Source: an uncultured Bacilli bacterium | GTDB taxonomy: Bacteria > Bacillota_I > Bacilli_A > RF39 > UBA660 | Reading direction: 5' to 3' | NCBI GenBank assembly: GCA_947581835.1 | Contig: CANPVV010000007.1 | Span: 1-44,642 of the forward strand | DNA length: 44,642 nt | Shown: piece by piece, positions 1 to 44,642 of the stretch | Layout: every line of letters begins with the position of its first letter | How positions within the stretch are numbered: position 1 is the first letter of the stretch | Translations under genes and position numbers: made by a program | The notes under the pieces: model-generated | The model's input: the letters and a program-made list of their open reading frames with translations, nothing else | Database searches by the model: none | Told to the model about the DNA's origin: nothing

Positions 1-57
1 TTGCATTTTCTCTTGATATTAAAAGAATTTATTACAAATTGCATTTTACTATTTAAC
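1..57 (-). repeat. 3'-flank repeat/terminator half after the sigma factor gene
   Basis: The bases right after the sigma factor stop match, at about 80% identity, the bases right after the lipoprotein stop (6629-6685). In that second copy the segment forms the 5' arm of a complete intrinsic terminator. Here the other arm and the T-run would lie outside the window, so this is probably a truncated terminator. Confidence 0.6.
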
Positions 58-2426
58 TAACTTCCTGCAATTTGACTATTATATTTTTCTTTTTTAGTTT
101 CATCTGTTGCAATGGCAATTGCATTATCTAAAAATCTGTTTATATTTTCTTTATATACTAATAATATTTTTTTGGTTGTTTCTATTACTTCTAATGGTTC
201 TATTCCTAAAAATTTAGCAATAGATTCAGTTGAATAATATTTACCATCTATATATCCTAATCTTAATGATATTATTACTGCTTCTTTTACTGATAAAGTA
301 CTCATCATTTGAGCAAATGTAGGTGTTCTTAATAATTCTAATACCTTTATGTAATCTTCTTTTGACATTTGATTATTGTTATTAGTAGGTTGTTCTACTG
401 ATTGTTTTGGTAAGTTAGTTGATTTGATTGTTAAGTCTTTTTCTTGGTGTTCCTGTTGCTCTATCTTTTTTTGCTCGTCTGAATCTTCCATAATTATAGT
501 TGAAATAACTTGATTTTCATTGTTTTCTGGTGGTAATGTTTCTTGTAGCTCTTTTGGAACTTCATTAGTTTTCGTTTGGACGATACTTACAGTTTGATTT
601 GCTACTGGTTGTTTGGCTTTCTTTTTTCTTTGGTTTGAATTTCTTTCTTTGGTTGGATTTGTTAATAATCTTTTCATTGTAGGTATTAATGTACCATAAA
701 ATCTATTAGTTTGTTCCTGAGTTAGTTTGTTTGATGCTGGATTATTTAAATCTTCTCCATATCGAATTATTAATAATGCTTTTTCTTCTTCTGTCAATTT
801 TGTTAACATTTCGTCAATTTGTTCTTTAGTATAATCTTTAAAATATTCATATATTGTTTGTAATTTTGGCATTTCTTCTTCATCTTTCCCTTCTTTATGT
901 TTATAATCATTTAAAAGTGTTTTATAATATGGATTTTTCATTTTTCGATATTTTTTTCTAAATTCGTTGATATTTTGTAATGATTTGTCCGGATAATTAG
1001 TATATACAGCTAATTCTTTGACGTATTTGGATCTTCTAATTTTCATTATGGCTTTAGCTTCTATTTGTCGGACTCTTTCTCTAGTTAAATTATATTTTTT
1101 ACCTATTTCTTCCAAAGTCATAGGTTCTCTATTATTAAATCCATATCTTAACATTAATATATCTTTTTCTCTAGATTCTAAATTACATTTTTCAAATATC
1201 AAATTTATTTGGGATAGCAAGGTTTCATCTATTGTTTTATCTTCTGGTGTCTTTTCAGAAGAAGATATAAAATTTTCTAATTCAGTATCTTCATCTCCTA
1301 TAGTAGCATTAATGCTTAGAGTATCCCATTGAAGTTCTTGTAATTTGGATACTTCAGATATTGATAGTCCCATTTCATTTGCTATTTCACTTACGGTTGC
1401 ACTTCTGCCTAATTTATCTTCCATTTTAGTTATTGTTTTTTTATATAATCTAACTTTTCCATATAAATGTACCGGGATTCTTATATTTCTTCCTTTAGTT
1501 TCAATTGCTTTAATTATAGATTGTTTTATCCAATAAGTTGCATAAGTTGAAAATTTATACCCTTTATTTGCATCATATTTATCTACTGCAATCATTAATC
1601 CTATGCTTCCTTCTTGGATAAGATCTAGAAGGGATAAGCCTCTATTAATATATTTTTGAGCTATACTTACTACTAATTTTAGATTGCTCTCAATAAATAT
1701 TTCTCTAGCATTAGAATCGCCTTCAGCAATTTTTATAGCAAGTTGTCTTTCTTGTTCAGGAGATAATAAAGGTCTTTTTTCAATTTCTCTTAAATACATT
1801 TTATATGAATCTGTAGTTTTATCTTTGGTTAGGTCATAATTTTCTAAACTTATATTTTCTGTTTTAGCTATGTCAATATTATTTAACATACAATATGCAT
1901 TTATTGTTGATAATAATAAGCTATCATTAAATAGTTCTTCAACTTTACCAGATATAATTTGCGTATAATGCTCTTTAAAAACTGTAGCTACCATTTGATT
2001 AAAAGTATTATTTTTATTAATAAGTTCAATTAGTAAATCTGGGGTTGGTATATAATTGTAGGTTTCTAAAAAGTTGCTTAACTTATTAAAAGATTGAATA
2101 ACATTTATATAATCTGAAATATTAATAATTTTTGCAGTTATGTAATTATTTAATAAAGTAAAAGAGGTCTTTGGATTAAAAATTTGTTTTTTAGTTATTT
2201 CAGATAATTGAAATCTTATTTTTCTTTTTATATAATCTGAATATTTTTGATCTCCCTTATATTGTTTTTTAGAGTCTGAAATTTCTTTTATTATTAATTC
2301 TTCATATTCTTCATTAGAAATTGATATATATATAAAAGATAAATATAGCTTATTTATAGTAGGTTGTAATAAATCATATATTTGATTAGGATTCAATTGT
2401 TGTACTTTTTTTAAATTTAATTCCAT
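57..2426 (-). CDS. Sigma-70 family RNA polymerase sigma factor with extended N and C termini
   Basis: Directs RNA polymerase to promoters. Region 1.2/2 spans residues ~207-320 (YLREIEKRPLLSPEQE, DLIQEGSIGLM, YATYWIKQSI), region 3 ~322-395, and region 4 ~410-470 with the HTH TLEEIGKKYNLTRERVRQIE. RpoD-type factors usually end about here. This one continues for ~310 residues, and that tail holds two stretches resembling degenerate region 4: ~535-590 (LTEEEKALLIIRYG) and ~700-765 (LSVKEAVIISLRLGYIDGKY, then an HTH-like STESIAKFLGI). A low-complexity Gln/Asn/Glu/Lys-rich linker joins them. The N-terminal ~200 residues are unrecognisable. The start is set by GGTGAT upstream of ATG. It has its own promoter and no dnaG neighbour, so it may be the housekeeping factor or a paralogue; the sequence does not decide. 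Confidence 0.88.
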   Translation of the reverse strand: MELNLKKVQQLNPNQIYDLLQPTINKLYLSFIYISISNEEYEELIIKEISDSKKQYKGDQKYSDYIKRKIRFQLSEITKKQIFNPKTSFTLLNNYITAKIINISDYINVIQSFNKLSNFLETYNYIPTPDLLIELINKNNTFNQMVATVFKEHYTQIISGKVEELFNDSLLLSTINAYCMLNNIDIAKTENISLENYDLTKDKTTDSYKMYLREIEKRPLLSPEQERQLAIKIAEGDSNAREIFIESNLKLVVSIAQKYINRGLSLLDLIQEGSIGLMIAVDKYDANKGYKFSTYATYWIKQSIIKAIETKGRNIRIPVHLYGKVRLYKKTITKMEDKLGRSATVSEIANEMGLSISEVSKLQELQWDTLSINATIGDEDTELENFISSSEKTPEDKTIDETLLSQINLIFEKCNLESREKDILMLRYGFNNREPMTLEEIGKKYNLTRERVRQIEAKAIMKIRRSKYVKELAVYTNYPDKSLQNINEFRKKYRKMKNPYYKTLLNDYKHKEGKDEEEMPKLQTIYEYFKDYTKEQIDEMLTKLTEEEKALLIIRYGEDLNNPASNKLTQEQTNRFYGTLIPTMKRLLTNPTKERNSNQRKKKAKQPVANQTVSIVQTKTNEVPKELQETLPPENNENQVISTIIMEDSDEQKKIEQQEHQEKDLTIKSTNLPKQSVEQPTNNNNQMSKEDYIKVLELLRTPTFAQMMSTLSVKEAVIISLRLGYIDGKYYSTESIAKFLGIEPLEVIETTKKILLVYKENINRFLDNAIAIATDETKKEKYNSQIAGS

Positions 2427-30796: not shown

Positions 30797-30833
30797 AAGA
30801 AAAAAGAATGAAATAATCACTCTTATTTATTCT
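30797..30833 (-). terminator. Intrinsic terminator of the alaS operon
   Basis: An 11-bp stem with a one-base bulge (AGAATAAATAA with TTATTTCATTCT) is followed by T5; it contains the alaS stop. Confidence 0.75.
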
Positions 30834-32575
30834 AAAATAGCTTTGATACGGCGAACACCAGCAGAACTTGCCTCTTCTTTAATAATTCTAAATTTGCCTA
30901 ATTTACCAGTGTTAGTTACATGAGGTCCTCCACATATTTCTTTAGAAACATTACCAATACTATAAACATTTACAATATCAGCATATTTTTCAATAAACAT
31001 AGCCTCAGCACCACTTTTTAGGGCTTCTTCTTTAGGCATAGTACTCATGGTTACTGGTAAATCTTCTTTTATCCAGTTATTAACTATTTCTTCAACTTTA
31101 TGTTTTTCTTCATCGCTTAGTTTATGATCACATGAGAAATCAAAACGCATTCTTTCAGAGGTAATATTACTACCCTTTTGATGAACATTTTTATCAACAA
31201 CTATTTTTAATGCAGCATTTAAAAGATGGGTTGCAGTATGATACATGGTCTCTTTTTCACCAGTGCTAGCTAGGCCACCTTTAAATTTACCAGCAGAGGC
31301 AGTACGAGATAGTTCTTGGTGAGCTTTAAATTTTTCTTTAAAGCCAGCAGTATCAACAGTTAAACCTTTTTCTTCGGCCATCTCTTCAGTTAGTTCAATT
31401 GGAAAGCCATAGGTATCATATAATCTAAAAGCACTTTCAGCATCAATTGTAGAATTTTTTATATGAGCTAAGACTTTCGAAAATTCTTTTAAACCTTTTT
31501 CAAGGGTGTGATTAAATTTTATACGTTCTTCTTTTAAAACTTCTAAAATATGAGTTTGATTATCTTTAATTTCGGGATAATAGTTAATATATTCTTGAAT
31601 AACTACTTTAGCTGTTTCTTCTAACCAAGAAGATTCCATATCGATTTCTAATTTTTTAGCATGGCGAATGGCTCTTCTTATAAGTCTTCTTAAAATGTAA
31701 CCTTGGTCTGTATTACTTGGAACTATTCCAGCATAATCAGCACTGATAAAAACACTGGTTCTTATATGATCAGCGATAATACGCATACTTGTTTCATTAC
31801 CTTTATATGGTTTATGACTTAATTCTTCGATTTTAGCAATAATATTTTTCCAAATTGAGGTTGCATAATTATCTGTTACGCCTTCTAATATGGCAACTAC
31901 TCTTTCAAGACCCATGCCTGTGTCAACATTTTTTTTAGGTAATTCGGTAATATTACCTGAGGCATCTTTATTATATTCCATGAAAACATTATTCCATATT
32001 TCAACCCAATGATCATCTTTAGGATCAAATTTTTCGGGAATATTATCGCCGCGATAATAGAAAATTTCGGTATCGCCTCCGCATGGTCCTGATTCACCCG
32101 CGATCCAAAAATTGTCTTCAACTCCAAGATAAGCTATACGTTCTTCTTTTATTCCTAAATTTTTCCAAATACTAGCAGAAACTTCATCACGAGGAATTTT
32201 ATCTGTTCCAGCAAAAACAGTAACTGCAAGTCTTTCGACAGGGATTTTTAAAACTTTAGTTAAAAATTCATAACTATATTCAATACTTTCTTTTTTAAAA
32301 TAATCGCCTAAACTCCAGTTACCAAGCATTTCAAAGAAGGTATGATGAGTTTTATCACCAATACTATCTAAATCTGTTAATCTAACACATTTTTGATAAT
32401 CACATAATCTTTTACCTTCGGGGTGTTCTTTACCCATTAAATAAGGAATTAAGGGTTGCATACCAGCTGTATTAAATAATACAGAAGGATCATTTTCGGG
32501 AATTAGAGGAGCACTAGGTATTTCTACGTGTCCTTTACTTACAAAGTAATCAATAAATAATTTTTTTAAATTCAT
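30827..32575 (-). CDS. alaS: Alanyl-tRNA synthetase lacking the C-terminal domain
   Basis: Charges tRNA-Ala. The 582 residues cover the class II aminoacylation core (FNTAGMQPLIPYL, HHTFFEMLGNWSLGDYF, NVDTGMGLERV), the tRNA-recognition helices (HIRTSVFISADY, NTDQGYILRRLIRRAIRHA) and the editing domain with HTATHLLN and CGGPHVTNTG. It stops there. Usual bacterial AlaRS is ~870 residues, so the DHHA1/C-Ala part is absent, with a clean stop and no downstream remnant. The start is ATG 32575, one base after the kinase stop, with AAGGTGG upstream. Editing residues look intact. Confidence 0.96.
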   Translation of the reverse strand: MNLKKLFIDYFVSKGHVEIPSAPLIPENDPSVLFNTAGMQPLIPYLMGKEHPEGKRLCDYQKCVRLTDLDSIGDKTHHTFFEMLGNWSLGDYFKKESIEYSYEFLTKVLKIPVERLAVTVFAGTDKIPRDEVSASIWKNLGIKEERIAYLGVEDNFWIAGESGPCGGDTEIFYYRGDNIPEKFDPKDDHWVEIWNNVFMEYNKDASGNITELPKKNVDTGMGLERVVAILEGVTDNYATSIWKNIIAKIEELSHKPYKGNETSMRIIADHIRTSVFISADYAGIVPSNTDQGYILRRLIRRAIRHAKKLEIDMESSWLEETAKVVIQEYINYYPEIKDNQTHILEVLKEERIKFNHTLEKGLKEFSKVLAHIKNSTIDAESAFRLYDTYGFPIELTEEMAEEKGLTVDTAGFKEKFKAHQELSRTASAGKFKGGLASTGEKETMYHTATHLLNAALKIVVDKNVHQKGSNITSERMRFDFSCDHKLSDEEKHKVEEIVNNWIKEDLPVTMSTMPKEEALKSGAEAMFIEKYADIVNVYSIGNVSKEICGGPHVTNTGKLGKFRIIKEEASSAGVRRIKAILE

Positions 32576-32576
32576 T

Positions 32577-33107
32577 TTATTTTCCACCTTCTAAATATGC
32601 CATTACTTTACTTTCAAGAGTTTTTTTATCATCATTGGTAATGGTTAAATCAAAATTGTCATAATTTTCTAAGGCTGTTTCAGTTATATGCATTTGTTCT
32701 TTTAAAGATAATTTACTTTCTTCAAATTGATTAATAACATATATAGAAACACAGTTAGGATAAGCAGCTTTAAATTCTTCTATTTCTTCTGGTAATCTAA
32801 CGTCACTAATTACAACAATATCATAATAAAGAGTATAAACTTTGATATCTTCTTTCATACGGTCGATTAAGAAATTAGGCATTTCCATATTTTCACGAAT
32901 AGTTACACCTAAATCTTGGAGGAAACGACGAGGTTTGTCTTCATTTACGCCATCCCAGCCTAAGACTTCTTTAGCATATAATTTTAGATATTTACTAAAT
33001 TCAGTTATAACTACCCTTTTGCCAAAAGCTTCATAATAATCTTTGATAATACGAGCAACTTCATTTTTACCACTGCCGGATTTGCCCGCAACTAAATATA
33101 TTTTCAT
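32577..33107 (-). CDS. P-loop nucleoside/nucleotide kinase-like protein
   Basis: A 176-residue P-loop protein: Walker A AGKSGSGKNEVARII (~7-21), then RRFLQDLGVTIRE (~62-74), then VVISDVRLPEEIEEF (~98-112), a pattern like deoxynucleoside monophosphate kinases and dephospho-CoA kinase relatives. Substrate is uncertain. AGGTGG precedes the ATG. It precedes alaS by one base and probably shares its mRNA. Confidence 0.78.
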   Translation of the reverse strand: MKIYLVAGKSGSGKNEVARIIKDYYEAFGKRVVITEFSKYLKLYAKEVLGWDGVNEDKPRRFLQDLGVTIRENMEMPNFLIDRMKEDIKVYTLYYDIVVISDVRLPEEIEEFKAAYPNCVSIYVINQFEESKLSLKEQMHITETALENYDNFDLTITNDDKKTLESKVMAYLEGGK

Positions 33108-33255: not shown

Positions 33256-33280
33256 TAAAAAAAGACTAATTAATAGCCTT
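33256..33280 (-). terminator. Intrinsic terminator of infC-rpmI-rplT
   Basis: A 7-bp stem (AAGGCTA/TAGTCTT, one G-U pair) and T-run, overlapping the rplT stop. Confidence 0.7.
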
Positions 33281-33821
33281 ATTTTAAATTTGCAAGTAAT
33301 TCATCTTTTTTCATAGTAGAATAACCTTTGATGCCTTGTTCTTTAGCAATATTTTTTAATTCACTCAAAGTCATTGTACTATAATCTGGTTTAGAAGTTG
33401 GGGTTGTCTTTTTGGCTGGTTTAGCATCTTTAACTTCTTCTTTTACTTCTTTTTTAGAAATTTTGCCTTCTAGGGCTTCTTTACTAGTTTTAACTAAGTT
33501 TTTAAACATTTCAGGATCATTTATAGCCATTTCACTTAACATTTTACGATTAATTTCAATTCCAGCTTTTGATAAACCGTTCATAAATTTAGAATAACTT
33601 ATGTCATTTTCACGGCAAGCGGCATTAATTCTAGTAATCCATAATTTTCTAAAGTTTCTTTTATTGGCTTTACGGTCACGGTAAGCATAAGCACCACTAT
33701 GGAATACTTGCTCTTGAGCTGTTTTATATAATCTATGTTTAGAACCAAAATAACCTTTGGCTTCTTTTAAAACTTTTCTTCTTCTAGTTTTAGAAACTGT
33801 TCCACCTTTAACTCTTGTCAT
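33279..33821 (-). CDS. rplT: 50S ribosomal protein L20 with SAP/Rho-N-like tail
   Basis: A 23S rRNA-binding assembly protein and, in Firmicutes, the repressor of its own infC-rpmI-rplT operon. Residues ~1-118 are ordinary L20 ([37 protein letters not shown]). The 180-residue product then adds a Lys/Glu/Pro linker and a ~32-residue tail with [20 protein letters not shown], a SAP or Rho-N type helix-extended-loop-helix. L20 normally ends near residue 118. The same tail closes S2 in this window. AGGAGG precedes the ATG. Confidence 0.96.
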
Positions 33822-35669: not shown

Positions 35670-35855
35670 TTAATTTTCAGTGGTTTTTGCCTCTGGTTTT
35701 AAATGATATGTACTTAATTCTTCTTTGATATCATTTTTAAGAGTATTTAAAAAATTTTTTTTATAATTATTTACCATAAGGACTGATAGCATCATAACTG
35801 TAAAGATTAGAAAAAAAGAATAAATTAAATACATTGAGGCAAAACCTTTTTTCAC
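35670..35855 (-). CDS. Small pilin-like membrane protein
   Basis: A 61-residue protein. A basic KKGF at residues 2-5 is followed by a long hydrophobic helix (~5-29: FASMYLIYSFFLIFTVMMLS), then a charged helical tail. This resembles class III leader peptides of minor (pseudo)pilins, with cleavage expected between Gly and Phe, although the usual Glu at +5 is absent. The start is the GTG at 35855, four bases after AGGTGAT; the longer reading starts inside that site. An extended -10 lies upstream. A plain single-TM protein is equally possible. Confidence 0.55.
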   Translation of the reverse strand: MKKGFASMYLIYSFFLIFTVMMLSVLMVNNYKKNFLNTLKNDIKEELSTYHLKPEAKTTEN

Positions 35856-35872
35856 AATTATCACCTAATTAA

Positions 35873-35881
35873 ATTATAACA
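35873..35881 (-). promoter_or_regulatory. Extended -10 promoter of the pilin-like gene
   Basis: TGTTATAAT directly after the bacteriocin terminator, with a weak -35 (TTTTAT). Confidence 0.5.
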
Positions 35882-35907
35882 AAAAAGGGTTTAAAATAAA
35901 ACCCTTT
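35881..35907 (-). terminator. Intrinsic terminator of the bacteriocin operon
   Basis: A perfect 9-bp stem (AAAGGGTTT/AAACCCTTT) with a 6-base loop, then T-run, 10 bases past the last peptide gene. Confidence 0.85.
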
Positions 35908-35916
35908 AGATAAAAA

Positions 35917-36075
35917 TTAGCAATAATTTTTTGTAGAACCACGACGGATTGATGATCCAACCATTTTTCCAAATTCAATAATGGTAGTAAATGCTTTAAT
36001 TACTGAGGTAATGAAGGCTGCACTAAGGCCCGCACCACCAGTAGTTGCTAGTAATTGTTCTTTAGTAAGTTGCAT
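35917..36075 (-). CDS. Bacteriocin-like prepeptide C (double-glycine leader)
   Basis: A 52-residue precursor. The 14-residue leader MQLTKEQLLATTGG fits the C39 pattern: Leu at -12, Gln at -8, Leu at -7, Gly-Gly at -2/-1. The 38-residue core starts AGLSAAFITSVIKAF, has a GxxxG motif (GKMVG), is cationic, and ends in KNYC with a single Cys. The start is ATG 36075, one base after the stop of peptide B. A longer in-frame reading extends into peptide B and is rejected. It is last in the exporter operon. Probably a class II (possibly IIb) bacteriocin; a signalling peptide is the alternative. Confidence 0.85.
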   Translation of the reverse strand: MQLTKEQLLATTGGAGLSAAFITSVIKAFTTIIEFGKMVGSSIRRGSTKNYC

Positions 36076-36076
36076 A

Positions 36077-36226
36077 TTAGTTACACTTATTAGGATGAAT
36101 GTAGCCATAGATAACTGAGGCAACAAAGGTACCTAAAGCCGCTAATCCTGCTCCTACTACTTTAATAACACTCATTGAAATACCACCATTTATTTGATTA
36201 AGTTCAAGATTATCTAAATATGTCAT
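36077..36226 (-). CDS. Bacteriocin-like prepeptide B (double-glycine leader)
   Basis: A 49-residue precursor, found by translating the gap. The leader MTYLDNLELNQINGG is an almost ideal C39 substrate: Leu -12, Glu -8, Leu -7, Ile -4, Gly-Gly. The 34-residue core is very hydrophobic (VIKVVGAGLAALGTFVASVI) with small-xxx-small spacing, and ends IHPNKCN with one Cys. Single bases separate it from its neighbours (stop, one base, ATG on both sides). Its own ribosome-binding site is poor, so translational coupling is likely. Confidence 0.85.
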   Translation of the reverse strand: MTYLDNLELNQINGGISMSVIKVVGAGLAALGTFVASVIYGYIHPNKCN

Positions 36227-36227
36227 G

Positions 36228-36362
36228 TTAACTTAAGCGTCCTTTCACTACATAAATTATATTTGCTAATTTTTTTAAAGATGTAGCTAAAATAGTTAGT
36301 AAGGTATTTATAACTGCCCCACCCTCACAACTAAGTAGCTCATAATTGTTTAATTTTTCCAT
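36228..36362 (-). CDS. Bacteriocin-like prepeptide A (double-glycine leader)
   Basis: A 44-residue precursor, also too short for a routine ORF screen. The leader MEKLNNYELLSCEGG has Leu -12, Glu -8, Leu -7 and Gly-Gly. The 29-residue core starts AVINTLLTILATSLKKLANI and ends in a basic VVKGRLS. It has no acidic residue and reads as an amphipathic helix. It is the first of the three peptides and the only one with a good ribosome-binding site (AAGGAAG). It lies 17 bases after the accessory gene. Confidence 0.85.
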   Translation of the reverse strand: MEKLNNYELLSCEGGAVINTLLTILATSLKKLANIIYVVKGRLS

Positions 36363-36379
36363 TTTATACTTCCTTTCTT

Positions 36380-36790
36380 TTAAAATGCTTTATTTAGCAT
36401 TTTGGTTATAATTCTTTGTTTATTATAATAAAAATTTAAGTTTAAAATTTCATTGGCCTCATAATTATTATTAGTAGTTATTGAGAGTTTTTTTAGACTT
36501 TCGAAGGAATCCTCGGGGATAATAATTTGAGAGTCAATTATTTGATAACTTGTTTTTTTATTATTAATGGTTAGATAGTCAAAAGTAATGGTACTAGGAA
36601 TATAGGTAGTAATATAACAGGTATCATTACAAGTAACTATTCCTTGGGTAGAATAATTGTCATAAATTTTAGTTTGGGTTAGATAGATGATTAAAATACT
36701 AAAACTAATGAAGATTAATATTAGAATAAGAGTTAAGTTTTTGGGTTTTGTTGCTTGGAAAGCTGTTTTGTTGTTAAATATTTCAATCAT
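36380..36790 (-). CDS. Small one-TM protein of the bacteriocin operon (accessory or immunity)
   Basis: A 136-residue protein. A short cytosolic N terminus (MIEIFNNKTAFQATKPKNL) is followed by one TM (~20-42) and an outside strand-rich domain (~50-136) with a Cys pair in VTCNDTCYI. The N terminus, TM and following Gly-Ile-Val strand resemble the start of HlyD/LcnD-type accessory proteins, but these are ~400 residues with a coiled coil, which is missing. ATG 36790 follows GGAGG, one base after the exporter stop. An immunity protein is the main alternative; no other immunity candidate is seen. Confidence 0.65.
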   Translation of the reverse strand: MIEIFNNKTAFQATKPKNLTLILILIFISFSILIIYLTQTKIYDNYSTQGIVTCNDTCYITTYIPSTITFDYLTINNKKTSYQIIDSQIIIPEDSFESLKKLSITTNNNYEANEILNLNFYYNKQRIITKMLNKAF

Positions 36791-36791
36791 T

Positions 36792-38828
36792 TTAACCTCC
36801 AACATTAATAATGTTGGTAAATAAATCATCTACGTTTTTGTGTGAGACATAAATTAGAATATTATTGGGGAAATATGTTTTGATATTAGTAATTATTTCT
36901 TTTTCTAATTTAAGATTTACTTCACTTAAGGCTTCATCTAAAATAATAATGGTAGATGGTTTTAATAAAGCTCTAGCAAGAATAATTCTTTGCCTTTCAC
37001 CACCACTTAGATTATTTTCAGAAGCATTGATTATTGAATCTAACCGATTTGGTCTTTTAGAAATTATTTCATCAACTTTGCAAATTTTAATAATATCAAG
37101 TAATAAATTATCATCAATATTGCGAAAACATTTAATATTGTCTTTAATAGAACCAGTAAATAGAGTTTCTTCTTGATTAACATACAAAATATCAGATCTA
37201 ATGGTTTTTAAACTAAGATCTTTTTCACTCAAATTACCTAGTTTAATGTCACCTTGATAATCAGATAAGGTTTTATATAATAATTTACAGATAGTACTTT
37301 TACCACAGCCAGATGGGCCTTTAAGTAAGACTTTAGCTTTGGGTTTAATTTCAAAGTTCTGGTTAGATAAAATATTGGTGTAATTATTATATGAATAACT
37401 TAAATTAGTAACTTTAATTTTATCAATAGGAAGATTTAAACCTTCATACACCTCCTCATCTAAACTTAAAAACTCACTTAATTTAGTAAATGAAGCTTTT
37501 ATATAGTAATATTTTGGGAGTAAATCAAGCATTTCTTTTACGGGATCAAATAGATAGAGAATAAGACTGTTAAATGTTACTAAGCTTAATAATTCTAATT
37601 TATTTTGAGATATTAAATAGATGCCATAAGTTGTAAGAAAAAATAAGCCAAATTCATAAATACTGTTTTTAATAAGATTTAAATTGTTTAGAATAGTGTT
37701 TAACTTAAAATTGTTTTTAAGCATTATTACAAGTTTGTTTTCTAAACGGTAATAAAACTCATTTATTAAATTTAAGTTTTTCATACTATTAATTAAATTG
37801 ATATTCTCGACTAAAGTAGTATTGAAATTAGTTGATGATTCAATATTTTTAATGATAGATTGATAAATTACTTTACTAAATATTAAACCAATTATAATAT
37901 AAATACTAATAATTAAACAAAGAAGAAAAAATAGTTTAGTACTTATAAAATATAAAGCAATTATGGTACCCAATACCAAAACCGAATTAAGTAAAATACT
38001 TGCGAATATTTCCGATAGTAATGACTTGATTTCATTTAATTCCTCAACGCGAGAGATTATTTCACCAGTAGTTCGGTTTTGAGTAAATTTTAAAGGAAGA
38101 TTAAAGATATGGTGAAGGAAGCTAGTAAAAATTTCAAGATCAAGATTTTTATGAAAATAGTTTAAATAGTAATTTTTAAGATAGCTAAAAATAACTTTAA
38201 AAACAGTGAGAAAACTAAAGAGAATAATAATGAATTTTAAGAATTTTAGATCAGAATTTAAACTAGAAACTGTTATTTGAAAGTAAAAACTACTTATTAT
38301 ATACAAAAACATTAAGATTACATTTACTAGACAAATAAAAGTAAATATGGTTTTATTGTGAATGAGAAGTGAACCAAATAATTTAAATATAGTTATTTCT
38401 TTATTCATTTTAATAATACTAGATATAGGATTTAGTAGAATTAAAATGTTATCCCAAATTTCATTAAATTCTTCAAGATTTAGTTTAACTATACCTTTAG
38501 CAGGATCCATGATATAAACATGGTTTTTAGTTATTTTAGATACAACAACAAAATGGTTTAAGCCATTTTTTAAGATAACATGAGCAATAGCAGGAAAATA
38601 AAGATTTTCGTTAGTTAAATGATCTACTTTCACTCCATTAGTTTCAAATCCATATTTTTTCGCGGCCTCAATTAAATGATAGGCTGTTGTGCCATCTTTG
38701 TTAGTGTATGTATCTTCTCGGATTTTTTCTATAGGAACATAGCCTTTATAGTATTTGATAATACAGGATAGACAGCAAGCTCCACAATCTTTTAAATCTT
38801 GTTGTTTTACAACTTCAACTTTAGCCAT
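36792..38828 (-). CDS. Peptidase-containing ABC transporter (C39), bacteriocin exporter
   Basis: Cleaves double-glycine leaders and exports the mature peptides. The 678 residues have an N-terminal C39 peptidase (~1-130) with Gln9, Cys15 (DLKDCGACC), His92 (GLNHFVVV) and Asp108 (MDPAKG). A membrane domain (~155-430) follows, then the ATPase with Walker A GPSGCGKST, signature LSGGERQRI, Walker B IIILDEALSE and the H-loop VSHKN. ATG 38828 is chosen because GGGAG lies eight bases upstream; a GTG six codons earlier would cover that site. All catalytic residues are intact. Confidence 0.96.
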   Translation of the reverse strand: MAKVEVVKQQDLKDCGACCLSCIIKYYKGYVPIEKIREDTYTNKDGTTAYHLIEAAKKYGFETNGVKVDHLTNENLYFPAIAHVILKNGLNHFVVVSKITKNHVYIMDPAKGIVKLNLEEFNEIWDNILILLNPISSIIKMNKEITIFKLFGSLLIHNKTIFTFICLVNVILMFLYIISSFYFQITVSSLNSDLKFLKFIIILFSFLTVFKVIFSYLKNYYLNYFHKNLDLEIFTSFLHHIFNLPLKFTQNRTTGEIISRVEELNEIKSLLSEIFASILLNSVLVLGTIIALYFISTKLFFLLCLIISIYIIIGLIFSKVIYQSIIKNIESSTNFNTTLVENINLINSMKNLNLINEFYYRLENKLVIMLKNNFKLNTILNNLNLIKNSIYEFGLFFLTTYGIYLISQNKLELLSLVTFNSLILYLFDPVKEMLDLLPKYYYIKASFTKLSEFLSLDEEVYEGLNLPIDKIKVTNLSYSYNNYTNILSNQNFEIKPKAKVLLKGPSGCGKSTICKLLYKTLSDYQGDIKLGNLSEKDLSLKTIRSDILYVNQEETLFTGSIKDNIKCFRNIDDNLLLDIIKICKVDEIISKRPNRLDSIINASENNLSGGERQRIILARALLKPSTIIILDEALSEVNLKLEKEIITNIKTYFPNNILIYVSHKNVDDLFTNIINVGG

Positions 38829-38898
38829 AAATTTATCTCCCTTCACTAATATTTATTACCCTCTACCCTTCTATTTCCTTCTTTTTTGGAGATTTTAC

Positions 38899-38926
38899 GA
38901 ACAAATTGAAGAATTAGGAACACAAT
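38899..38926. promoter_or_regulatory. Candidate operator repeats between the regulator and the exporter
   Basis: Two imperfect direct repeats, GAACAAATT and GAACACAATT, start 19 bases apart in the divergent promoter region. The exporter has only a weak -10 (TAAAAT) beside them, which would fit regulated transcription. A consensus TATAAT for the plus-strand regulator lies at 38954-38959. Confidence 0.4.
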
Positions 38927-38986
38927 TCGACAAATTTTTTAAATGTTATAGGTTATAATAGCAACTTTAAGAAAGGGGGAAAATTT

Positions 38987-39439
38987 ATGAATTGGAATAT
39001 TTTGTTGGGTTCTTTAAGAACTAAAAGAAATTTAACTCAGCAAGAAATGGCTAATATTTTGCATTGTACTCTTAGAAGTTATCAGTTGTATGAAAGTGGT
39101 TCAAGATTAATTTCGATAGAAAAAATTAATTTGTTAAGTAATTATTTTCATGTTTCGATAGATTATCTTTTAGGAATTACGAAAAAAAGTCAGTCTTTTA
39201 ATAAGATAGATAGTTTTAATTATCTAAGACTAACCTTCTATTTGAAATTTTTAAGAATTAAAGAGCATATTACTCAGAAAGATTTAGCAAGATTCTTAAA
39301 GGTTTCAGCGCATACAGTGTCAAGATATGAGATTAATGCCAAAAATATTAATATTTTGTATTTAGCAAAAGTAGCAAATTATTTTAATATTTCAGTTGAT
39401 TATATGGGTGGAAAGACCACAAAAAAAGAAGTACTTTAA
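38987..39439 (+). CDS. Double HTH (XRE-family) transcriptional regulator
   Basis: The only plus-strand gene here. Its 150 residues are two XRE helix-turn-helix domains in tandem: ~5-62 (LRTKRNLTQQEMANIL, then YQLYESGSR, VSIDYLLG) and ~79-142 (LRIKEHITQKDLARFLKVS, then TVSRYE, ISVDYMGG). There is no separate sensor domain. AAAGGGGG precedes the ATG. It diverges from the bacteriocin operon, so local control is likely. Its stop overlaps the stop of the convergent permease gene by 4 bases. Confidence 0.88.
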   Translation: MNWNILLGSLRTKRNLTQQEMANILHCTLRSYQLYESGSRLISIEKINLLSNYFHVSIDYLLGITKKSQSFNKIDSFNYLRLTFYLKFLRIKEHITQKDLARFLKVSAHTVSRYEINAKNINILYLAKVANYFNISVDYMGGKTTKKEVL

Positions 39440-43802: not shown

Positions 43803-44642
43803 CTATTTTAAATTACTTATAATTTCTTCTTTTTTCATAGAAGAATAACCTTTAATACCACGGTCTTTAGCAATAGTTTTCAATTCTGTTAAAGTAAGAT
43901 TGTTGTAATCTACTTCTTTTTCTTTTTTATCTTTTTTTACTTTATCTTTATGAGGTTTTTCTTCTTTTTTAGGAGTATCTTCATCATCAGATTTTTTAAC
44001 ATTAGCTGCTTCTTCCTTCATAATTTCGTCCATTGTTTTAACTTCTTTGTTTTTCTTATCTTCTTCAGTGATATAATCAACCATTTCTAAATTACGAGAT
44101 TCACAAATAGCATTATTTAAAACACCAAGTAAGACTTTAACACTGCGAACAGCATCATCATTACCAGGAATAACAAAGTCTACGTCATCTGGATCACAGT
44201 TAGTATCAACAATTCCAAAAACAGGAATACGTAGTTTGCGAGCTTCTCTTATTGCATTAATTTCCTTTTTAGGATCAACAATTATTAAAGCATTTGGTAG
44301 TTTATTCATTTCTCTTATACCACATAAGATTTTATTTAGTTTTTCATATTCTTTCTTTAAACCAATTACTTCTTTTTTAGGTAAAACTTCAAATCTACCT
44401 GTAGCTTCCATATTTTCAATATCTTCAAGACGTTTAATTCTTCTTCTAATAGTTCTAAAATTAGTTAGAGTTCCTCCTAACCATCTTTCAGTTACATAGT
44501 AAGAATTACTTCTTTGAGCTTCTTCACGTGAGGCTTCACTAGCTTGTTTTTTAGTACCAACAAATAGGAATGTTCCTCCATTGTCAGCTATAGCTTTAAT
44601 TTCAGCATAAGCTTCCTCTAATTTTTTAGTTGTTTTTTCAAG
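43803..44642 (-). CDS. rpsB: 30S ribosomal protein S2 with SAP/Rho-N-like tail (5' partial)
   Basis: A 30S protein that binds S1 and 16S rRNA. The frame is open to the window edge, so the N-terminal ~50 residues are missing. The visible part includes [56 protein letters not shown] and [13 protein letters not shown]. After the normal end come a Lys/Glu-rich linker and a ~32-residue tail with [20 protein letters not shown], nearly the same as in L20. A shorter reading from an internal ATG (44411) is not the true start. Confidence 0.96.

Follow-up and report, generated by a model that had tools for sequence, protein, structure and literature searches.

A class IIb-like two-peptide locus with a co-encoded C39 exporter, kept as a core trait across an order of gut Bacilli

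Gene content of the locus

The window, that is, the whole stretch of 44,642 nt that was analysed, carries on its minus strand the genes for a C39 exporter, an accessory protein and three double-glycine peptides (C, B and A, in this order), which end at a terminator; the gene for a double-HTH regulator diverges from them. Every element named in the original prediction (three leader peptides, exporter, accessory protein, regulator and terminator) is present:

38987..39439, plus strand: Xre-type double-HTH regulator with two HTH_3 matches
36792..38828, minus strand: C39 peptidase-ABC exporter (Pfam C39, ABC_membrane and ABC_tran)
36380..36790, minus strand: accessory protein, predicted to have one transmembrane (TM) helix and a small beta domain
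36362-36228, minus strand: precursor of peptide C, leader MEKLNNYELLSCEGG, core AVIN...GRLS; genus-specific, core cationic and hypervariable
36226-36077, minus strand: precursor of peptide B, leader MTYLDNLELNQINGG, core ISMS...NKCN; hydrophobic helix, SxxxG, C-terminal Cys
36075-35917, minus strand: precursor of peptide A, leader MQLTKEQLLATTGG, core AGLS...KNYC; cationic helix, GxxxG (GKMVG) then SSIRR, C-terminal Cys
35884..35907, minus strand: intrinsic terminator at the end of the operon, 9-bp stem and T-tract
35670..35864, minus strand: 64-aa protein with one TM helix, past the terminator; no family match above cut-off

The leaders of A, B and C all share Leu-12, Glu/Gln-8, Leu-7 and Gly-Gly. 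Only 1 nt separates B and A in the window, where the two are probably translationally coupled. Within the genus the position of the locus is fixed, with frr upstream in 30 of 31 loci and rpsU/yqeY downstream in 27 of 28; the double-HTH regulator accompanies 31/31 genus loci versus 3/127 other loci.

The exporter matches the Pfam models C39 (5.7e-40), ABC_membrane (3.9e-30) and ABC_tran (1.1e-24), and has the features of a peptidase-containing ABC transporter, namely the C39 residues Cys, His and Asp, a TM domain and a nucleotide-binding domain with Walker and signature motifs. Cys15, His92 and Asp108 are kept in 152-153 of 153 relatives, the sole exception being an alignment gap at Cys. The GTG at 38846, with which the reading frame opens, was replaced as the start by the ATG at 38828, which is preceded by the Shine-Dalgarno sequence GGGAG. 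The closest solved relative is PCAT1 (PDB 4ry2; phmmer E 2.7e-92), and ComA is matched with E 5e-85; on NCBIfam TIGR01193 the exporter scores 354 bits, below the curated cut-off of 523.85 (~524), and it was not assigned to that subfamily.

The conserved peptides and their distribution

The order exporter, B, A is the same in 152 of 152 readable loci, with a median gap of 8 nt between B and A, and both peptides are encoded downstream of all 101 related exporters with a readable flank, the only weak cases being B in L085 and A in L111; this arrangement is far above chance. The Gly-Gly of the leader is invariant in the alignments of A and of B (32 members each). GxxxG is found in the core of A in 152/152 loci (0.22 in shuffled cores); the core of B has [GAS]xxxG in all 152 (1.0, versus 0.69 in shuffled cores) and strict GxxxG in 124, SxxxG of the window's own B being GxxxG in most relatives. 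Median identity to the window is 0.39 for the core of A and 0.47 for that of B, versus 0.59 for the exporter. The conserved unit is two peptides, B and A, not three.

In class IIb bacteriocins, by definition, each of the two peptides has a GxxxG motif or one resembling it (PMC8538875). At the locus there are two different adjacent precursors with double-glycine leaders, a co-encoded C39 exporter and a GxxxG-type motif in both peptides. The window's B scores 23 bits on the class IIb model TIGR03949 (lactobin A/cerein 7B; cut-off 21.5), in a match that includes the leader, and among its relatives TIGR03949 is matched in 29/32 and lactococcin G-beta in 20/32, each at E<=0.1; A matches class IIb models weakly. 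The cores had been described as unlike any recognised, which for B does not wholly hold. The helix-packing motifs in A and B and the match of B to a class IIb model suggest that the pair works like a class IIb two-peptide bacteriocin, and sequence evidence supports the original view of class II products from a Bacilli lineage with a reduced genome: double-glycine leaders, export by a C39 transporter and no modification enzyme.

The exporter is encoded in 268 of 291 genomes and 145 of 150 genera of the order, which is probably RF39/UBA660, and peptide A (profile A1) in 359 of 385 genomes, or 290 of the 306 good ones. No full-length match to A was found among the 341 genomes searched from other families of Bacilli; weak matches in a different family of the class (g153; 20-25 bits, covering no more than model positions 2-28) were judged chance or leader-only. 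Most genomes without A are also without B and the exporter, and of 13 picked for missing A or the exporter 12 were without B and 10 without a C39 domain above chance. Apparent exceptions were set aside: in G071 and G073 a more diverged C39 exporter adjoins A, whereas G275, with an exporter and no A, is on broken contigs, and G100 has a short exporter frame close to the start of a contig. As the module is largely all-or-none, the search for cores in genomes without the exporter, proposed as a refuting test, did not refute the class II reading.

Bacteriocin genes as a rule occur sporadically, on plasmids or islands, together with an immunity gene. The present locus, at first described as a compact multi-component bacteriocin, is a near-universal, single-copy core trait of the whole order and neither a sporadic bacteriocin locus nor a cluster of one strain. 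A B-like query had no match in the plasmid collection searched. The literature search found no work joining bacteriocins with UBA660, and among the matches listed the titles and abstracts on RF39 and bacteriocins describe no such locus.

Each peptide has one C-terminal Cys at a fixed distance past the motif: 12 residues for A and 7 for B, in 140 loci each. Of 152 loci scored, 140 have both Cys and 11 have lost the two together; single loss was never seen. Apparent one-sided cases in L078 and L088 were discarded: there the Cys of B sits within the GxxxG motif rather than in the tail, and the tail of each peptide is truncated. Parsimony places four changes, two of them forced by strongly supported branches; joint loss has thus occurred at least two and up to four times. 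The signal may rest on as few as two independent losses, and a sign test on four pairs cannot reach significance. That the two Cys are lost together and never singly points to an intermolecular disulfide between A and B, and this covariation suggests that the expectation of unmodified products, although no modification enzymes are present, may be incomplete. Since Cys-less lineages exist, the bond would not be indispensable. A VKOR-type oxidase, the only oxidase type sought, was not found, nor was a precedent for a covalent two-peptide bacteriocin in the literature searched.

Self-protection, peptide C and other possible roles

Of 156 loci, 118 have the gene for the accessory protein next to that of the exporter, in most loci directly after it, and in the other 38 it was not found there; the protein contains CxxxC in most genus members. 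No curated family (Pfam, NCBIfam) is matched above cut-off, and a PDB profile search gave chance matches only. Its AF2 model (pLDDT 77) has one TM helix and a beta-barrel-like domain. Among the VIA-align matches of the model, the top nine (Z 6.4-7.6) are without exception membrane fusion proteins; as modelled, the accessory protein resembles a minimal β-barrel of the membrane fusion protein kind.

Curated family searches matched nothing in the operon to a known immunity family; CPBP/Abi proteins are encoded in the genome, unlinked to the operon. Intrinsic immunity through a missing target was rejected: UppP, the target of lactococcin G, is present in every genus genome tested, so its absence cannot explain self-protection. 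The 64-aa one-TM protein (28 of 31 genus loci) is a candidate immunity factor, but may be unrelated.

Self-immunity conferred by C, by the accessory protein or by the 64-aa protein, instead of a role as a bacteriocin or a helper in export, is rather unlikely. The accessory protein has one TM helix and its gene in most loci immediately follows that of the exporter, and single-TM immunity proteins down to 42 aa, such as CbnZ, are known (PMC8538875); the fold of the accessory protein, however, matches membrane fusion proteins and its gene was not found beside every exporter, while C bears an export leader and the 64-aa protein lies past the terminator and is mostly genus-specific. A true three-peptide bacteriocin with C as an essential component is very improbable. 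Leader and Shine-Dalgarno sequence of C are conserved within the genus, and C is present in 30 of the 31 other genus loci; yet it is missing from L071, was not found in the operon of other genera sampled, and no part of the locus is less conserved than its core (median identity to the window 0.22). Three peptides there are in the window, as originally described, but order-wide only B and A are conserved; C is a genus-level addition outside the conserved unit, and a separate role, as a bacteriocin of its own or an inducer, fits better.

That the locus is core and single-copy, with no known-family immunity gene in the operon, also speaks against a bacteriocin as such. The peptides might be a conserved secreted signal or a self-acting cell-envelope factor (autoinducer, autolysis trigger or developmental factor) and not weapons, which would explain both the near-universal vertical inheritance and the missing linked immunity gene; in other genera a SpoIIIAH-like gene, identified by eye, lies divergently upstream of the exporter. 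As a rule, however, a pheromone is one peptide whose gene is linked to that of a histidine kinase or receptor; here there are two peptides and neither kinase nor receptor was seen in the operon, the cores change faster than the exporter does, and two different GxxxG membrane helices with matches to class IIb models fit a pore-former better. We regard such a role as unlikely.

Proposed mechanism and known systems

On balance, the probable reading is a class IIb-like two-peptide system, disulfide-joined and membrane-permeabilising, that is inherited vertically as part of the core genome of the order. By analogy with the known families, the C39 domain of the exporter would cut the double-glycine leaders off B and A, and the exporter would pump the cores out, aided by the small membrane-fusion-like accessory protein. 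Outside the cell cationic A and hydrophobic B would pair through their GxxxG-type motifs, probably in parallel, with their C-terminal Cys probably joined by an intermolecular disulfide; the pair would then insert into the membrane of neighbouring bacteria and permeabilise it, so that A and B together are predicted to be antibacterial. The window's genus would have gained the third, fast-changing cationic peptide C, and its operon adjoins the divergent double-HTH regulator. FabF was not found in the window's genome, and fatty-acid synthesis is lost in the genus tested; speculatively, fatty-acid-auxotrophic hosts might use the A-B system to free nutrients from neighbours. The complete scenario, a disulfide-linked two-peptide membrane toxin which, as an order-wide vertical core trait, takes lipids and building blocks from neighbours for auxotrophs, is doubtful.

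Bacteriocin loci are regarded as sporadic weapons that turn over fast; here one class IIb-like pair and its exporter are kept in single copy across ~150 genera of prevalent, uncultured, genome-reduced gut bacteria. Such retention marks the pair either as a tool central to the ecology of the order, and then as relevant to the lifestyle of RF39 and its resistance to culture, or as a secreted factor conserved for some other function. Whether the two peptides are covalently joined can be tested directly through the joint loss of Cys.

With PCAT1/ComA-type transporters (TIGR01193; PDB 4ry2, 8hf4) the exporter shares the full domain set and the catalytic residues; by its score under the cut-off it is a diverged, lineage-specific branch. 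The accessory protein is like HlyD/LcnD-type membrane fusion proteins in its predicted TM helix and beta-barrel-like domain, but its ~137 aa leave no space for hairpin and lipoyl domains. Class IIb systems such as lactobin A/cerein 7B (TIGR03949) and lactococcin G/enterocin 1071 share with the locus two adjacent double-glycine precursors with cores of ~30-40 residues, GxxxG-type motifs in both peptides, and a co-encoded C39 exporter with accessory protein. The system of the window differs from them in that A is weakly matched by known models and no member of a known immunity family is linked, in the one co-lost Cys per peptide, which suggests a covalent heterodimer, and in being an order-wide, vertically inherited core locus where class IIb systems are sporadic.

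Operon layout and its proteins

The exporter, accessory protein, three leaders, terminator and double-HTH regulator of the original prediction were all found and, as leaders and exporter domains are intact, that observation is confirmed; only the exporter start had to be corrected, to the ATG at 38828.

Features of the operon and its surroundings in the window
38828 (ATG) to 36792, minus strand: C39 peptidase-ABC exporter; peptidase, membrane and ATPase domains intact
36790-36380, minus strand: accessory protein, next downstream of the exporter
36362-36228, minus strand: peptide C precursor, double-glycine leader
36226-36077, minus strand: peptide B precursor, double-glycine leader
36075-35917, minus strand: peptide A precursor, double-glycine leader
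35907-35884, minus strand: terminator (stem-loop and T-tract) after peptide A
38987-39439, divergent, upstream of the exporter: regulator with two HTH_3 domains (domain matches)
35670-35864, minus strand: 64-aa one-TM protein, directly past the operon terminator

The leaders of A, B and C have Leu-12, Glu/Gln-8, Leu-7 and Gly-Gly in common, and a single base separates the stop of B from the start of A. The catalytic residues of the exporter (Cys15, His92, Asp108) are kept in 152-153 of the 153 exporters of the family; the nearest relatives of this exporter with a solved structure are PCAT1 and ComA. The accessory protein, present beside 118 of 156 exporters, matched no known family by sequence above cut-off; its AlphaFold2 model (pLDDT 77, four sequences) predicts a beta domain of six strands together with one TM helix and one C-terminal helix, and its nine best structural alignments are all to membrane fusion proteins (Z 6.4-7.6; next unrelated fold 5.7). 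Z scores below 8 are modest, so the protein is called, with modest confidence, membrane-fusion-like. The double-HTH protein accompanies 31/31 genus loci versus 3/127 others and is thus a genus-level regulator. In loci L076, L077, L079-L082 and L085 of other genera, a gene that by eye is SpoIIIAH-like is found upstream of the exporter, divergent from it and on the opposite strand. The 64-aa protein, kept in 28/31 genus loci, may serve in immunity or be pilin-like.

Elsewhere in the window, ribosomal proteins L20 and S2 (33279-33821; 43803-44411, minus strand) share an extra tail at their ends, L(T/S)L.ELK.IAK..GIKGYS.MKK.E....NLK, by eye a Rho-N/SAP-like module fused to both. The primary sigma factor ORF (57-2426, minus strand; 789 aa) has a long extension beyond region 4 with a second region-4-like stretch, TEEEKALLIIRYG (by eye), and the alanyl-tRNA synthetase ORF (30827-32587, minus strand) is, with 586 aa, much shorter than the usual enzyme.

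Distribution and inheritance of the exporter-peptide module

The exporter is present in 35/36 genomes of the genus (57-78% identity) and, across the family, in 268/291 genomes and 145/150 genera. Flanking DNA was taken around more than 150 family exporters, and profiles of A and B were used to search it downstream for the peptides. In a first set, 101/101 exporters with readable flank were followed by both, this count including B of locus L085 and A of locus L111, which closer inspection showed to be weak or missing; in a larger set the order exporter-B-A holds in 152/152 scored loci. The profile of A matches 359/385 genomes of the order (290/306 good-quality ones), which is one family in the genome sample used; in other families of class Bacilli its only matches were three partial ones of 20-25 bits, all within one genus.

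Among 13 genomes picked for lacking A or the exporter, B is absent from 12 and a C39 peptidase above chance from 10; one further C39 match has 22 bits in a 1073-aa frame, and the remaining exceptions are on broken contigs. Therefore, exporter and peptides are one module, retained or lost together, and the cores were not seen to persist in genomes devoid of the exporter, the finding that would have spoken against the original prediction. In the genus, the locus position is fixed: it is preceded by frr and a gene of the AI-2E family in 30/31 loci and followed by rpsU/yqeY in 27/28 with room; rpsU/yqeY also follow in 23/44 loci with room from other genera. The exporter-B-A locus is vertically inherited.

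Peptide C occurs in 30/31 other genus loci (in some by reading DNA), and the operons of other genera were not found to include it. Measured against the window, its core changes fastest (median identity 0.22, versus 0.39 for A, 0.47 for B, 0.42 for the accessory protein and 0.59 for the exporter). While the three precursors predicted for the window are there, a three-peptide unit is not upheld, since C is limited to the genus and its core is hypervariable; the ancestral unit is exporter, B and A. In locus L078 the B-A pair is duplicated in tandem, which gives four peptides, and the tails are truncated.

The cysteines of A and B

Each core of A and B carries a single cysteine near its C-terminus, 12 residues after the second glycine of the motif in A and 7 in B (140 loci each). 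Of 152 scored loci, 140 have both of these and 11 (L078, L088 and nine genus loci) have neither; the one left over is truncated by the end of its contig, and wherever the ends are complete a cysteine in a single tail was never seen. Mapped on the exporter tree, the cysteine changes four times in A and four times in B, along the same paths, and strongly supported branches force at least two independent joint losses. So few events do not allow a sign test to become significant; the co-variation is strong but does not amount to proof. It is most simply read as an intermolecular A-B disulfide, which would sit close to the ends of two helices lying in parallel; alternatively, the peptides could form homodimers and have lost the cysteine jointly, or share a ligand. 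No VKOR-type oxidase, the only oxidase type sought, was found.

Possible function and relation to class IIb bacteriocins

Against TIGR03949 (lactobin A/cerein 7B), which has a cut-off of 21.5 bits, B reaches 23.0; of 32 B relatives, 29 match this model and 20 lactococcin G-beta (E ≤ 0.1), with a contribution of the leader. GxxxG is found in A in 152/152 loci versus 22% of shuffled cores, and [GAS]xxxG in B in all loci versus 69% (GxxxG in 124/152). For two-peptide bacteriocins, a motif of this type in each peptide is the accepted signature of helix-helix pairing (PMC8538875). Most likely, the C39 exporter would cut the leaders and export the cores; for the steps after export we infer that A and B would pair and that the pair would insert into the membrane of a neighbour cell. 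The strongest rival, that the peptides are a conserved signal or a self-acting envelope factor, is favoured by the universality of the locus, but the two-helix class IIb anatomy speaks against it, as does the lack of a linked sensor.

As to self-protection of the proposed bacteriocin producers, none of the operon's genes belongs to a known immunity family; UppP, the target of lactococcin G, is present in producers, and unlinked CPBP/Abi proteins of the genome are candidates for this role. The genome (1.29 Mb) and the other nine genus genomes tested lack FabF (PF00109); in published genomes of RF39, to which UBA660 belongs as a family (PMC13155120), pathways for fatty acids, several amino acids and vitamins are missing (PMC6784871). 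The genome with the window is probably of this RF39/UBA660 lineage.

In the literature searched, which took in a commentary on the main IIBacFinder atlas, no pair of peptides was found that is inherited vertically across an order and has lost its cysteines jointly; the atlas itself may list A and B uncommented. The likeness to class IIb two-peptide bacteriocins lies in the GxxxG-type motifs of both A and B and the TIGR03949 match of B, which takes in the leader, and the parts belong to known kinds, a C39 exporter and class IIb-like peptides.
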